51,969 nucleotides of DNA from Pseudomonadota bacterium. Lineage in GTDB: Bacteria > Pseudomonadota > Gammaproteobacteria > Nitrosococcales > Methylophagaceae. The DNA lies in contig JALIBN010000030.1 of the NCBI GenBank assembly GCA_030576275.1, forward strand, positions 52,625 to 104,593, in the 5' to 3' direction. The position numbers and the translations under genes are program-made. The number at the start of each line of letters is the position of its first letter. Position 1 is the first letter of the stretch. This document shows, piece by piece, positions 27,643 through 37,569 of the stretch. The notes below the pieces were generated by a model. That model was not told where the DNA came from, made no database searches, and was given only the letters and a program-made list of their open reading frames with translations.

Positions 27643-29664
27643 ATTATTAAATCTCAACTTCATTATGAAAACACTGCTCCCGAAACAATAAATAACTCGC
27701 TAGGTCAATCCAAAAAAATCAAATACATAGCCATAAACGCTTTAATCTTTGCAGCGTTAAGTATGCAAGCAGTCTCTGGTTTTGCCGGCTCTGCTGAGGT
27801 AGAAGCAAATTTGGGCAAACTCAAAATGCCAGCCGGTTTTAAAGTGGAAGTTTATGCTGATGTGCCAGGCGCACGTCAAATGACAATGGGCACAAACGGC
27901 AATGTATATGTAGGCTCACGTGGCAAAAATGTCTATGCCGTAGTTGATAAAGATAAAGACCATAAAGCTGACCAAGTAGTCACGATATTAGATGATCTTA
28001 ATGTCGGCAATGGTGTTGCTATGCATAGAGGAAATTTATATGTAGCAGAACAAAATCGTATTACGCGTTATGCCGCTCCCGATTTTGACTTGAATCTACC
28101 TTTCAAACAAATGCGGGAAGTTATTTATGACAAACTACCCAATAAGTTTCATCATGGCTGGCGCTATATTGCGTTTGGACCTGACGAAAAGCTGTATGTC
28201 ACTATTGGTGCGCCGTGCAATATTTGTAATCCTGAAGGCATCGAAGCCAGTATTATTCGCATGAATGCTGATGGTAGTGATGTAGAAACCTATGCAAAAG
28301 GCGTTAGAAACTCTGTAGGTATAGATTTTCAACCAGGTACAAACACACTTCACTTTACTGATAACGGTGTAGATATGATGGGGAATGACATTCCTCATGA
28401 TGAATTTAATGCTGCGCCTAAAAAAGGGATGCACTTTGGATTTCCCTTTTACGCAGGCGGTGATGCAAGACAACAAGACTGGGCAAGTAAAACGGCTCCC
28501 AAAGATGTTTCATACCCTGTGGCAGAGTTTCAAGCCCATAGTGCAAATCTAGGGTTTAAATTTTACACCGGTCAACAATTTCCTTCTGAGTATCAAGGCG
28601 ATGCTATTGTTGCTCAACACGGATCATGGAATAGAGACACCCCCGTTGGTTATCAGTTAATGCGTGTTAAGTACGACGCTCAGCATCAAGTTGAAAGCAG
28701 TGAAGTATTTATTGAGGGTTGGCTTAATAATGGTGAAGTTTGGGGACGACCAACTGACGTCTTGCAAATGCCAGATGGTTCTTTATTGATTTCTGATGAT
28801 TACAATGGCGTGATATACCGCGTCAGCTATGGTGAACAAGCGACTGCTTCAGTGGTACCGTCTAAAGCTTCAGGCACGGTACTGAACAATTTGCAGATGC
28901 CAGAGTCTTCAATTTCTCATCGTGACGGCCGTGTATTTATTACCGAAATTGGTGAGTTTGGTAAAGATGGTGATGGCAAAGTAACCATTTTAAACAAAGA
29001 TGGATCAACCAAAACGTTAGCTGATGGCTTAAACGATCCTAAAGGGATTGATATGTTTAATAATCAGCTTTATATCGCTGATGTTGATCATGTCGTACGT
29101 GTTGATTTCGATGGTAAGAAAACGATTATTGCAAAATCATCTGATTTTCAAGACAAGCCTATCTTTTTAAATGATATTGAGATTGATGGCCTCGGCAATG
29201 TCTATGTTTCAGATAGTGGTGATGATGATGGTAAGCATGGCGCTATTTATAAAATCACGCCAGCAGGCAAGGTGATTCAGATTGTAAATGATAAGTCAGG
29301 TATCAAACGACCTAACGGCTTATTAATGGATGGTCCAAATAAGTTGCTAGTTGCTGATTTCGGAACAGGTAAGTTGTTTCAAGTTGTTTTTGATGGAGCG
29401 TCAGCTAATCCAAAGACAGAAGTCACATTACTTAATAGTGGCTTTGGTGCCGCTGATGGATTGCTCAGAGATGCTGATGGTATTTTATATATCAGTGACT
29501 GGGCTAATGGTAAAGTTTGGCAGTTAAGTGAACCAAAAGCGACACCACAACTAATAACAGAGGGGCACAAGTCTGCGGCTGATATAGCACTTTCTGTTGA
29601 TGGGAAATATATTCTTATGCCAGATATGAAAGCAGGGCAGTTAATACCTTTAGCGATTAAGTAA
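27643..29664 (+). CDS. Secreted sorbosone-dehydrogenase-like/NHL beta-propeller protein
   Basis: About 673 residues with two propellers. The first (about 65-410) is of the PQQ glucose/sorbosone dehydrogenase family: FHHGWRYIAFGPDEKLYVT, GAPCNICNPE, NSVGIDFQPGT and AQHGSWNRDTPVGY. The second (about 410-670) has NHL/SMP-30 type repeats (GLGNVYVSDSGDDDG, RPNGLLMDGPNKLLVADFGTG). The first ATG is at 27763, but that would cut a good Sec signal peptide (KKIKYIAINALIFAALS) encoded just upstream in frame. The frame opens after a TAA at 27640, and an AGGGA site precedes ATT codons at 27643 and 27646, so a non-ATG start is proposed. Substrate unknown. Confidence 0.75.
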   Translation: MIKSQLHYENTAPETINNSLGQSKKIKYIAINALIFAALSMQAVSGFAGSAEVEANLGKLKMPAGFKVEVYADVPGARQMTMGTNGNVYVGSRGKNVYAVVDKDKDHKADQVVTILDDLNVGNGVAMHRGNLYVAEQNRITRYAAPDFDLNLPFKQMREVIYDKLPNKFHHGWRYIAFGPDEKLYVTIGAPCNICNPEGIEASIIRMNADGSDVETYAKGVRNSVGIDFQPGTNTLHFTDNGVDMMGNDIPHDEFNAAPKKGMHFGFPFYAGGDARQQDWASKTAPKDVSYPVAEFQAHSANLGFKFYTGQQFPSEYQGDAIVAQHGSWNRDTPVGYQLMRVKYDAQHQVESSEVFIEGWLNNGEVWGRPTDVLQMPDGSLLISDDYNGVIYRVSYGEQATASVVPSKASGTVLNNLQMPESSISHRDGRVFITEIGEFGKDGDGKVTILNKDGSTKTLADGLNDPKGIDMFNNQLYIADVDHVVRVDFDGKKTIIAKSSDFQDKPIFLNDIEIDGLGNVYVSDSGDDDGKHGAIYKITPAGKVIQIVNDKSGIKRPNGLLMDGPNKLLVADFGTGKLFQVVFDGASANPKTEVTLLNSGFGAADGLLRDADGILYISDWANGKVWQLSEPKATPQLITEGHKSAADIALSVDGKYILMPDMKAGQLIPLAIK

Positions 29665-30041: not shown

Positions 30042-31824
30042 TCACGCTACATAGCAATTATTTCGGCCTTTGTTTTTAGCCATATACATGGCTTCATCTG
30101 CTCGCAATATAAGTTCATCCAGATTTTTAATATCAGCTTCAAGATTGCTGATTCCGATACTGGCTGTAATATTAGTCTCAATTTTAGGGATGTTAATTTC
30201 GCTAATCACCTGACGAAGTCGTTCCGCAATCAAGAGTGCTTCGTCCGTATCTGTTTCTTCAAGTAAGATCATAAATTCTTCGCCACCAACTCTCGCTGGC
30301 AAATCCGTTTCCCTGCAAACATGCTGAATACTGTTAGCCACAGAAATTAAAACAGTATCTCCAACAGCATGCCCGTAGTTATCATTAAATTGTTTAAAAT
30401 GATCAATATCCAGCATTAAATATAGATATGTCACGTCGATATCGTATAGATTTTTGGAAGATTACTTCTGCCTGTATATAAAAAGAGCGACGATTCATCA
30501 GGGTTGTTAACGGATCGGTTGAGGCCAGTCGCTTAAGTTCTTCTGTTCTGTCCTCCACTTTTTGTTCCAATGTCGCATTAAGTTCTTTTAGTTTATTTTT
30601 AACGACTGCAAAATGATGTAGAGAGACCCCAACCAAGATGATAGAAAATAAAAGAGAACCTATTGCGATGGGCATTCTTGTCCAAGGAATAATGTTATGA
30701 GCGACCCCCATATCAATTAACAGAAAAAGGCTGAAAATGGCAAAAGAGGCGAGCTGTATTTTTACATCGTTATTAACCTGCTTAACTTGAGACAATGTGA
30801 TCAAAAATAATATAAGCAGGCTTAGGGTTAATAAAACGTCAAACAGATAATACATGGATGACAAGTCGACCAGTCCTGTAGCTGAACTACTAATAGCAGC
30901 AATCACAAAAACAAGATGAAATTTCCAAATAGCCTTAATAACTTTTGTAAATTTCCATGCATACCATGAATCAAATAACATCGCTATGGCGATCGGCAGG
31001 ACAAAATAACCTGCAGCAGCAATGTGATCCCAAACTATAGGGGCGTTGACCAAAAGTTGCTTGACCTGACTCTGTGCAAACAACATAACACTTGAAGCGA
31101 AGGTGAAAAAGAAAATGAGTAGGAATGCCTGTCTCTTAGACTGAATGAAAGCAAAGATTAACGCTAAGAGAGCAATCACCAAGGATAAGCTACTCACCGC
31201 TATATCTGTTATCGATTTACTGATGATATAACCAAACAAACCTATACGGTCCATCAGTTTGACTTCACCCCATAATCCGATGTCAGAAGCTGAAGAAAAT
31301 ATCCGAAAATAAATTGTTTTCCCTGCAAAATCATCAGGGAGGCTGACCATATGCCATGGCCATCCTTCAAAGCGTCCCCGCCCGTGTTTGTCGAATGACC
31401 CGTAGTTATAAATTTGATGACCATCGATGTAGACTTCAGTGATCAAATCAACACTGTAAATATAAATAACAGGAACACGCCATATGCTATTGTCGGGTAG
31501 CGTCGTACGATACCACACGTTTGTCCTTCCATCACGATTGGGTGGGTTGGAAGGAAAATCAATATTTAGCCATTCATTTTGTGAGTGTTCCTCAACGGTC
31601 CATTCAGGAATGCCATCGTCACTAAAAGGAGAATCTCCCCAGCGATATTGCCAGTTGGATTCGAGATTTTGGATTGTTCCCTGAGCAAAAGCAATGCATG
31701 GAAATAGCATCAGGAAAGTGATAATTTTCAGAATAAATCGTTTAGGAATACGATATAGAAAAATGGGTAATGGTGATGGAGAGTGTTGAAAATAAACAAT
31801 CGACAATGTGAAATACCTTTTCAT
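30042..31824 (-). pseudogene. 7TMR-DISM diguanylate cyclase split by a frameshift
   Basis: Upstream part 31824-30403 (473 residues): signal or anchor, a periplasmic jelly-roll sensor (about 50-190, with WYRTTLP and EVYIDGHQIYNYGSF), seven membrane helices (about 205-400), a coiled coil, and the start of GGDEF (LASTDPLTTLMNRRSF). Downstream part 30434-30042, in another frame, continues GGDEF with YLMLDIDHFKQFNDNYGHAVGD, the active-site GGEEF and ASIGIS. Reading frame changes at about 30434, where the bases CGACGTGACATAT need an extra 5 bp (GTGAC) or a similar indel to join RRD to TYLYLML. The catalytic half has a GTG at its start but no ribosome site. It is a broken, phase-variable or mis-sequenced cyclic-di-GMP synthase. 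Confidence 0.85.
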
Positions 31825-34374: not shown

Positions 34375-34375
34375 A

Positions 34376-34414
34376 AAAAAGCCCCAGTAGAATTAACTGC
34401 TGGGGCCTTTTTTT
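34376..34414. terminator. Terminator of pqqA (bidirectional)
   Basis: GCCCCAGTAG (34381-34390) pairs with CTGCTGGGGC (34397-34406) with one wobble, loop AATTAA. There are six A before the stem (T6 on the minus strand) and seven T after it. It lies 23 bp after the pqqA stop. Confidence 0.85.
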
Positions 34415-34436
34415 GAACTTTTTGTAATCTTAAATC

Positions 34437-34508
34437 TTAACGATTACAGATGTACATTGTTACTTCAAAGCCGAAACGCATATCTGAATATTCTGGTTTA
34501 GTCCACAT
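34437..34508 (-). CDS. pqqA: PqqA, PQQ precursor peptide (orphan copy)
   Basis: 23-residue ribosomal peptide from which pyrroloquinoline quinone is made. Sequence starts [16 protein letters not shown]; Glu15 and Tyr19, the two residues cross-linked by PqqE, are in the conserved spacing EVTMY. The ATG is preceded by AAGGTG six bases away. A possible -10 (TATACT) lies about 45 bp upstream. A strong terminator follows within 25 bp, so this is a one-gene unit. No pqqB, C, D or E is in the window; those must be elsewhere. Extra unlinked pqqA copies are known in methylotrophs. Confidence 0.95.
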
Positions 34509-34717
34509 AGTGATCACCTTGTCTGTTGATTAAATTAGTTTTAAGATTGAAAGTATACGGAGATGACTTATTAATTAATATGGGATTTTTCTTGAAGTTG
34601 CTCAGGAAATTACTTGTTTAAATGTAAGGTCATGGTATTTCATTCCACTTTAGTTCGATGTCAGAACACTATTATTTTTAAATTTTGCAACTAATTCAAT
34701 TATGATGAGGTCATTGG

Positions 34718-35491
34718 TTGATAACTATAAAAGATGTTGATGAGATGACTGACAGCACGCAACTACAAAATTGGATAAATTCAGCACCTGTTGTGGTGTT
34801 TAGAAGTCCTGTTACTGAGATGGACGCTTTAAGGCGAGCTCTGAAAAGTAGGAATATAAATTTTCGTGAAATAGAGCTGAGTATGGCTCACGATGAATCC
34901 CGAGAGCAGTTTCATCAGCTCAAAAAACTGACAAATTATGAATTATTACCACAAGTTTTTATTGACGCATCATTCACTGGGGGCGCTGACAAATCACTCC
35001 ATAGTGCTGCTTTTGAAGCTTTATCGACAACAAATAGCTCAGTATTAACCACTAAGAAATTGTTTTTAGCACTGGGTTATGCTGGTATTATTCCCTTTAT
35101 TTTTTTCAGCTTACTGTCATTTTTATCCGAATTCCATGCTTGGGCGATTAGAGCAAATTTAGCATATGGTGCTGTCATACTCACTTTCATTGGTGCTATT
35201 CATTGGGGAAGACTACTACAGATGTTTTCATCTGATTTAACCAGAAAAGATACAGGTGTTTTGGTCGTTAGCATTTTACCTTCGCTACTTGCTTGGGTGG
35301 TTTTGATCGAATTTTTCAATCCTGCTTCATCACTGTGTATTTTGATATCAGGCTTTATGGCAATGTGTGCGTTTGAAGGCAGTTTAAAAACCTATACATC
35401 AGCATGGTATAGAAAAATGCGGGTGCAATTGGGCTATACCGTAAGTGCATTATTAGCCTTATCAGTTTTATCTATATTGATTGCAGGATAA
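34718..35491 (+). CDS. Glutaredoxin-like domain (no cysteines) fused to DUF3429 membrane domain
   Basis: 257 residues from a start at 34718 (TTG, read as Met); an ATG at 34745 is an alternative. About residues 10-105 are a thioredoxin-fold glutaredoxin module: the VVVFRSPVTEMDALRRAL strand-helix, INFREIELS, and LLPQVFIDASFTGGAD which is the cis-Pro and GG-D region. The active site CPYC is replaced by SPVTEM, so it is probably redox-inactive. About 115-255 are DUF3429 with four or five helices, including IHWGRLLQM. The function is unknown. The DCC-family gene follows by 7 bp, suggesting an operon. Confidence 0.75.
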   Translation: MITIKDVDEMTDSTQLQNWINSAPVVVFRSPVTEMDALRRALKSRNINFREIELSMAHDESREQFHQLKKLTNYELLPQVFIDASFTGGADKSLHSAAFEALSTTNSSVLTTKKLFLALGYAGIIPFIFFSLLSFLSEFHAWAIRANLAYGAVILTFIGAIHWGRLLQMFSSDLTRKDTGVLVVSILPSLLAWVVLIEFFNPASSLCILISGFMAMCAFEGSLKTYTSAWYRKMRVQLGYTVSALLALSVLSILIAG

Positions 35492-36843: not shown

Positions 36844-37026
36844 TTACTTTCTTGAGTAAGCGACCGCTAGTTGAAATAGCTCATTACTCGGGCGGATATG
36901 TGTGTATAGGGCAAATTGTTCAACGGCTTGTATGGCAAATACCTCTGAACCGCTGATAACCGTTTCCCCTAGTTTTTTAGCATAGGTGAGTAAAGGCGTA
37001 TCAGAAGGTAAAGCTACCACATCAAA
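36844..37026 (-). pseudogene. C-terminal fragment of a shikimate dehydrogenase (AroE/YdiB-like)
   Basis: About 60 codons ending in TAA. FDVVALPSDTPLLTYAKKLGE matches the conserved VxDxVYxPxxTPLL block of AroE-like enzymes, and GSEVFAIQAVEQFALYTH matches the final GLxMLxxQAAxQFxLWTG block. The N-terminal three quarters are missing: at about 37026 the sequence changes to a methyltransferase fragment on the other strand. Confidence 0.75.
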
Positions 37027-37569
37027 AATTAGCTATGCATGGATGATACCCGCTTCGACTCATCAAAATAACCACCGAACGGCTAAAGAGACTCTGACGT
37101 CTCCCGAAATCCCACATGATGCTGATAACCATATTTTTCCATCGCAAGCAAAGCAGGTCGTTGAACGATTAAAGCATATCGCACCTGGTGAGAATGCTTG
37201 GGCAGAATCAATACCAGAACATCTTCGTTTAAATGTAAAAGGCGCCAAACTTAATAACATCTATAAATGACTTCACCCTGAAAAACCCTCGTATACAGTA
37301 AGGGGTAGCGGCGGCGGGACACAGTGTATCACTGGGAAGAGCATCGCGCCCTCCACAATAGAGAGCGAGCAAGGCTACAAACATTTCCTGATAACTATCT
37401 GTTTGTTGGTGGCAAAGAAAGTGTCAGAAAACAAGTTGGCAGGGCTGTACCTCCTGAAGGAGTGAAAGTTATCTTTAGGGCAATAGTAAATTCATTTGCA
37501 GGAACAGAGTATCTGTTCATTCAATCCAATATAAAACATCATTTACTACCGCTAAATAAAGCCTCATAA
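37027..37569 (+). pseudogene. C-terminal fragment of a DNA cytosine-5 methyltransferase
   Basis: Reads AWMIPASTHQNNH, then LNNIYK, a TGA where Arg would be expected (37268-37270), HPEKPSYTVRGSGGG, a 1-base deletion near 37321, then YHWEEHRALHNRERARLQTFPD and GRAVPPEGVKVIF. The last two blocks are motifs IX and X of Dcm-type enzymes. Catalytic motifs I, IV and VI are absent. No partner restriction gene is visible. It is dead by truncation, nonsense and frameshift. Confidence 0.85.

Follow-up and report, generated by a model that had tools for sequence, protein, structure and literature searches.

Several pqqA genes in one methylotrophic genome are established biology. Methylovorus MP688 reportedly has five pqqA copies, dispersed genes as well as operon copies, which are said to be differently expressed, with one copy dominant to judge from the title of a 2015 study by Ge. 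In most genomes of the Methylophilaceae, according to the portion of the report available to us, three to 12 copies of pqqA accompany a single set of the remaining pqq genes (PMC4109929). The FJNU strains of Hyphomicrobium denitrificans carry five copies, two of which are described as dominant in expression in the accessible part of the paper (PMC9851590); copies therefore need not be equal elsewhere. In Methylobacterium extorquens AM1, the orphan genes pqqA2 and pqqA3 respond to the form of neodymium, as stated in the sections of the study at hand (PMC11317620). On the regulatory side, MxaY/MxaB, MxbDM, MxcQE and PedS2/PedR2 are presented, in the excerpts consulted, as two-component systems that control PQQ-dependent alcohol dehydrogenases (PMC5018670, PMC11845868). 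The reason for the many pqqA genes of methylotrophs and the control of PQQ supply are poorly explained.

We analysed a stretch of 51,969 nucleotides (the window) within contig C30 of a Methylophagaceae genome (2.37 Mb, 34 contigs). On its minus strand, a pqqA coding sequence of 72 bases, stop included, occupies positions 34437..34508 and encodes 23 amino acids; it scores 50.7 bits against the NCBIfam PqqA model TIGR02107 (cut-off, 20) and 42.1 bits against the Pfam PqqA model PF08042 (cut-off, 21.1). The translation confirms the earlier observation that Glu15 and Tyr19 stand in EVTMY, with the E-x3-Y spacing for the PqqE cross-link, and the peptide is predicted to be a precursor that the cell converts to PQQ. 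A ribosome-site-like AAGGTG (34515..34520, minus strand) and an intrinsic terminator with a hairpin and a U-rich tail (34375..34410, minus strand; −18.6 kcal/mol) complete what is, as the initial annotation proposed, a genuine one-gene unit. The hairpin lies 26 nt past the stop codon rather than 23; its sequence is symmetric, but no plus-strand ORF of at least 100 aa runs into it. Downstream lies uppP, also on the minus strand, and upstream a divergent gene with glutaredoxin and DUF3429 domains in one ORF (34718-35491). An NCBIfam scan of 28 of the 46 window ORFs of at least 100 aa (about 17 kb on each side), plus a few of the smaller ORFs, found no PQQ-synthesis gene near pqqA; the end of the contig, 17.5 kb from the gene, bounds this statement. 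Ten Rfam matches at the locus all fell short of the gathering score, and those over the terminator, which are leader-like hairpins, were taken as chance.

Three other places in the window were recorded. A 633-aa protein (27763-29664), about 5 kb from pqqA, has a glucose/sorbosone dehydrogenase domain and an SMP-30 domain and is a possible PQQ user. At 30042-31824 (minus strand), two ORFs overlap in different frames, the first ending at the start of the second, which holds most of a GGDEF domain; the arrangement looks like a frameshifted diguanylate cyclase. On inspection by eye, short ORFs at 36986-37569 look like the final part of a DNA cytosine methyltransferase; the first of them has no NCBIfam hit.

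A PF08042 search of the whole genome returned nine pqqA copies on six contigs. The window gene is thus an extra precursor copy, as had been suggested by analogy with methylotrophs, but not a lone one: it is one of nine with a shared promoter. Two tandem copies on contig C19 precede pqqB, C, D and E, where TIGR02108, TIGR02111, TIGR03859 and TIGR02109 all exceed their cut-offs (locus L072); pqqA stands directly before pqqB there and not at the window locus. One PqqE exceeds the cut-off in the genome, beside nine PqqA. The initial annotation had called for such a search and had named an adjoining pqqBCDE operon, or a genome lacking pqqE, as outcomes that would count against it; within the assembly, the single pqqBCDE operon lies on another contig, pqqE is present, and the remaining pqqA genes and pqqE lie elsewhere, in agreement with its statement that no other pqq gene is nearby.

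All nine copies encode one identical 23-residue peptide. Twelve positions of the coding sequence vary, every one of them a third codon position and synonymous, so that 12 of 24 codons are touched by silent variation. Seven of the nine are followed by a hairpin whose tail is rich in T (−18.6 to −25.0 kcal/mol); an eighth is truncated where its contig ends, and the pqqB-adjacent copy has no such terminator by the same test. Five copies (C19:67, C14, C12:196536, C8 and the window copy) are alike from about the first operator box, described below, to the terminator and little beyond, one pair staying alike somewhat past the unit ends. The C28 copy has only the coding sequence and terminator in common with these five, and the other three copies mainly the coding sequence. 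Seven other genomes, from two genera, also have loci with a pqqA next to glutathione reductase; the tpiA side was seen only in our genome and G001. Positional conservation of the window copy was not found: no pqqA lies in the 1.5 kb beside uppP of G006, the only genome among 36 with a uppP match at E≤1e-60. Judged by this distribution and the constant peptide, pqqA units seem to have been both multiplied and lost without any change to the protein.

How far does this multiplicity extend among relatives? PF08042 matches occur in 47 of 57 family genomes, 197 in total (summed by hand), with two to nine in each and never one. Among six genomes of the sister family, four have exactly one match and two have none. 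PqqE was detected at E≤1e-100 in 45 family genomes, in 40 of them as a single copy. Both pqqA and pqqE are absent from nine family genomes; in G005 (73% complete) only pqqE was matched, and in three incomplete genomes only pqqA. The other five of the 45, G001, G015, G019, G027 and G038, have a second, more divergent PqqE. In four of them (G001, G027, G015 and G019; loci L177, L178, L184 and L187, respectively), variant pqqA genes (MKNWIDPEYCDVRLGFEVTAYVHTR, MQWKDPAYCDLRLGFEVTAYVFVR) lie behind the same box as the others. The second pqqE closely follows the variant pqqA on the same contig in G001, G019 and G027, and in G015 the two stand at the ends of different contigs; variant pqqA and divergent pqqE form a second pqq cluster in these four genomes.

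All nine copies of our genome have a composite promoter in common, which, like the other eight copies, is absent from the initial annotation: the palindromic box TMAGGAAAATCCTGA is followed, about 22 bp further along, by another box and, at a fixed distance, by a −10 element. At the window gene, it spans 34551-34615 on the minus strand and consists of box 1, the near-palindromic operator AAGTAATTTCCTGAG (34601..34615; 12/14 to the consensus), box 2, the second operator half of the pair (34580..34595; columns 20-35 of the profile of 79 copies), and a predicted −10 element, GTATACTT (34551..34558; fixed column 57 of the family promoter). The profile derives from 91 collected copies, of which nine from outside the family were dropped and three of the remaining 82, under 11/14 for box 1, were left out, giving 79; removal of eight further near-duplicates gave alignment A1 of 71 copies. 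Loci L041-L070, which are pattern hits, were left out of one analysis behind the box-1 call. In the 79 family upstream regions, box 1 reads TMAGGAAAATCCTGAG and is near-palindromic, box 2 lies about 22 bp downstream and has one G and one C in 79/79, and the −10 element reads GTAANAT at a fixed column, where TA...T is found in 69/79 copies, against 0-6/79 at twelve other offsets. Because the alignment was anchored on the best match to one 14-mer, in box 1 only, the information of box 1 is inflated, and that of box 2 and the −10 element is independent of the anchor. The distance from box 1 to the ATG varies from 97 to 136. There is no clear −35 hexamer, box 2 sitting at about its place, and the layout would be that of an activator-dependent promoter; the window gene may be tuned for high expression, as initially suggested. 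The RcsB-type operator of enterobacteria resembles the box, being a palindromic site with an A/T centre that serves a GerE-domain regulator.

The association of this promoter with pqqA is nearly exclusive. Model R1, built from 71 copies with our nine partly in the training set, gave nine hits in our genome at E≤1.7e-7, all of them pqqA promoters, the next being at 0.10. The hold-out model R2, from 34 sequences that all belong to another genus (g3), ranked the same nine promoters first (4.3e-9 to 1.9e-4; next, 0.23), so that the operator is found by a model untrained on this genome; the window box 1 is the weakest of the nine under R2. Over both strands of the window, the g3 weight matrix reached 21.6 at the pqqA promoter, and the next best score was −16. 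Among 59 relatives there were 95 hits at E≤0.01. An intact pqqA follows 88 of them, spread over 26 genomes (the same figure under a strict and a looser rule); three run off a contig end and four do neither. Those four are all above 1e-3, and one, in G033, stands before a decayed pqqA-like ORF; the 91 hits with E<1e-3 are thus the 88 and the three. In 369 genomes drawn from the class, hits at E≤1e-4 occurred only in the family members G000 and G030. These scans are strict filters, which weak or differently arranged sites may escape: the 26 genomes have 98 PF08042 matches against 88 with a reported box (not paired singly), and about ten copies therefore go without a reported box, which in some of them is lacking or weak. 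The four variant genes are counted within the 88. The Ile-Cys after the cross-link Tyr, which the initial annotation called unusual, is the family norm: 80 of the 88 promoter-linked copies end in YICNR, and Cys21 as a peculiarity is ruled out.

The single-box pattern was rejected as a definition of the regulon, being too loose: when up to two mismatches are allowed, our genome has 116 sites for it and 50 for the reversed pattern. Six sites match it exactly; five are pqqA promoters and the sixth (C24:90481) lies inside a gene recognised by eye as acyltransferase-like. No dehydrogenase promoter was hit in our genome as an added target; the best methanol dehydrogenase gene starts 31 bases from a contig end, which leaves its promoter out of view, and this negative result is consequently drawn from the relatives only. 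Two stretches of G000 resembling quinoprotein dehydrogenases (C1:61026-62584 and C24:186521-187043) are stop-interrupted or in pieces and are probably pseudogenes or assembly errors. The composite box was not described in the open-licence PMC papers searched, and this promoter design of the pqqA copies is apparently undescribed; what seems new is the shared and nearly exclusive promoter.

Which factor might bind these boxes? Immediately in front of the operon's first pqqA are genes for a histidine kinase (HAMP, PAS, HisKA_3 and HATPase domains) and a response regulator of the receiver-GerE (NarL/FixJ-type) architecture (PF00072, 99 bits; PF00196, 72 bits). Of the 36 family genomes searched, 23 have an ortholog of this candidate regulator (at least 79% identity), and all 23 also have pqqA. 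In 22 of them, a promoter hit lies 8-22 bp beyond the end of the regulator gene; G031, the remaining one, has no box beside it. All 10 of the 36 genomes without a pqqA match lack the ortholog, an absence that could be one linked loss; the 10 include G005, incomplete and with a pqqE of its own. The ortholog is also missing from three pqqA-bearing genomes, G025 (82% complete), G026 (69%) and G035 (99%), the last of which has six pqqA matches, and boxes; this speaks against the candidate. Genes for SoxY and SoxZ adjoin the kinase on its other side, and the kinase may respond to a sulfur signal. The regulator's close relatives found by search are Methylophaga, Methylophagaceae and unclassified gammaproteobacterial records, plus one labelled Porticoccus (71%), and the host was accordingly regarded as a marine, methanol-using methylotroph of the Methylophagaceae. 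The contig with the Porticoccus label (L227, 6001-6880) has a kinase-regulator pair and, 190 bp on, a partial match to the pqqA promoter, behind which no pqqA ORF was found. No pqqA occurs in the 9 kb fetched around a 60% homolog outside the family. In M. thiooxydans, an island (L218, 3490-11889) holds a SoxY-like gene, the kinase, the regulator, a boxed pqqA, a second kinase-regulator pair, a PQQ dehydrogenase (TIGR03075, 713 bits) and then a third regulator, the regulators being recognised by eye. In the available portion of the M. thiooxydans paper, pqqBCDE is located close to two xoxF genes, and PQQ genes are named as part of the set that changes between dimethyl sulfide (DMS) and methanol.

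We consider it probable that the many short pqqA units are switched on together by a two-component activator to supply the precursor peptide consumed in PQQ synthesis. The nine self-contained units, each with an operator pair, a putative activator-type promoter, the gene for the 23-aa precursor and usually a terminator, are scattered over a genome that has one pqqBCDE set. A dimeric transcription factor would occupy the two boxes in tandem, their centres lying about two helix turns apart, near −64 and −42 relative to the predicted start, and would bring in RNA polymerase at a promoter that has no clear −35. For this role, the strongest candidate would be the receiver-GerE (NarL/UhpA-type) regulator, whose gene stands with that of the membrane histidine kinase ahead of the operon's first pqqA. 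An active kinase would lead to joint transcription of the pqqA copies; with one peptide spent per PQQ, supply would track the demand of PQQ-dependent methanol dehydrogenases, and the catalytic PqqBCDE could remain single-copy, gene dosage being the presumed reason for the copies.

It is unlikely, in our estimation, that the boxes are bound by another factor, with the adjacent regulator controlling something else, such as soxYZ. The candidates would be a second pair or third regulator as in M. thiooxydans, or an unlinked LuxR-type protein. Several related regulators per genome (our genome also encodes proteins 45 and 42% identical to the candidate), the way such regulators group in M. thiooxydans around pqqA and a PQQ dehydrogenase, and the boxes of G035, which lacks the ortholog, are consistent with such a factor; the 8-22 bp spacing in 22 of 23 genomes and the confinement of the adjacent regulator to pqqA-bearing members of the 36 argue against it. 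We regard as more doubtful still the notion that most copies are redundant leftovers of a unit that duplicates or moves, with added dosage mattering little and one copy giving nearly all PQQ. The likeness of five copies from box to terminator, the decayed ORF in G033, the window site that G006 does not have in common and, by the title of Ge 2015, the reported dominance of one Methylovorus copy would all fit it; against it stand the lack of any amino-acid change amid silent variation in 12 of 24 codons, the minimum of two copies in each of the 47 pqqA-bearing family genomes, and the boxes and −10 elements retained in most copies. A role of the dispersed peptides besides PQQ, such as the lanthanide handling that Zytnick et al. 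suggest for orphan pqqA2 and pqqA3 of M. extorquens in the accessible text (PMC11317620), is very improbable here, because dispersed and operon copies of our genome encode the same peptide and can differ only in timing and amount.

We give slightly less than an even chance to a wider picture: a two-component system whose direct targets, as far as the composite promoter shows, would be the same gene repeated again and again, in a regulon of dispersed operator-to-terminator pqqA cassettes that multiply as units, are co-regulated wherever they land and set precursor supply by gene number. Output of a precursor made on ribosomes would then be raised by copying a whole small transcription unit, not the operon. 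With one operator on most family pqqA copies and a linked candidate regulator, both the reason for the many genes and the control of PQQ supply become testable in cultured Methylophaga.

How does this arrangement compare with those described? The Methylophilaceae likewise are methylotrophs with many pqqA genes and one set of the other pqq genes, but they are another family, and a shared promoter, box or regulator is not described in the portion of that report available (PMC4109929). H. denitrificans FJNU resembles our genome in having dispersed single pqqA genes along with operon copies, and differs in that its copies are differently expressed, no common box being described in the sections at hand (PMC9851590). 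M. extorquens AM1 also has pqqA genes away from the operon; for these the accessible text reports a response to the form of neodymium and does not describe a promoter analysis (PMC11317620). Finally, as compared by their descriptions in the excerpts available, MxaY/MxaB, MxbDM, MxcQE and PedS2/PedR2 have dehydrogenase genes as their targets, whereas the composite promoter found here marks pqqA.
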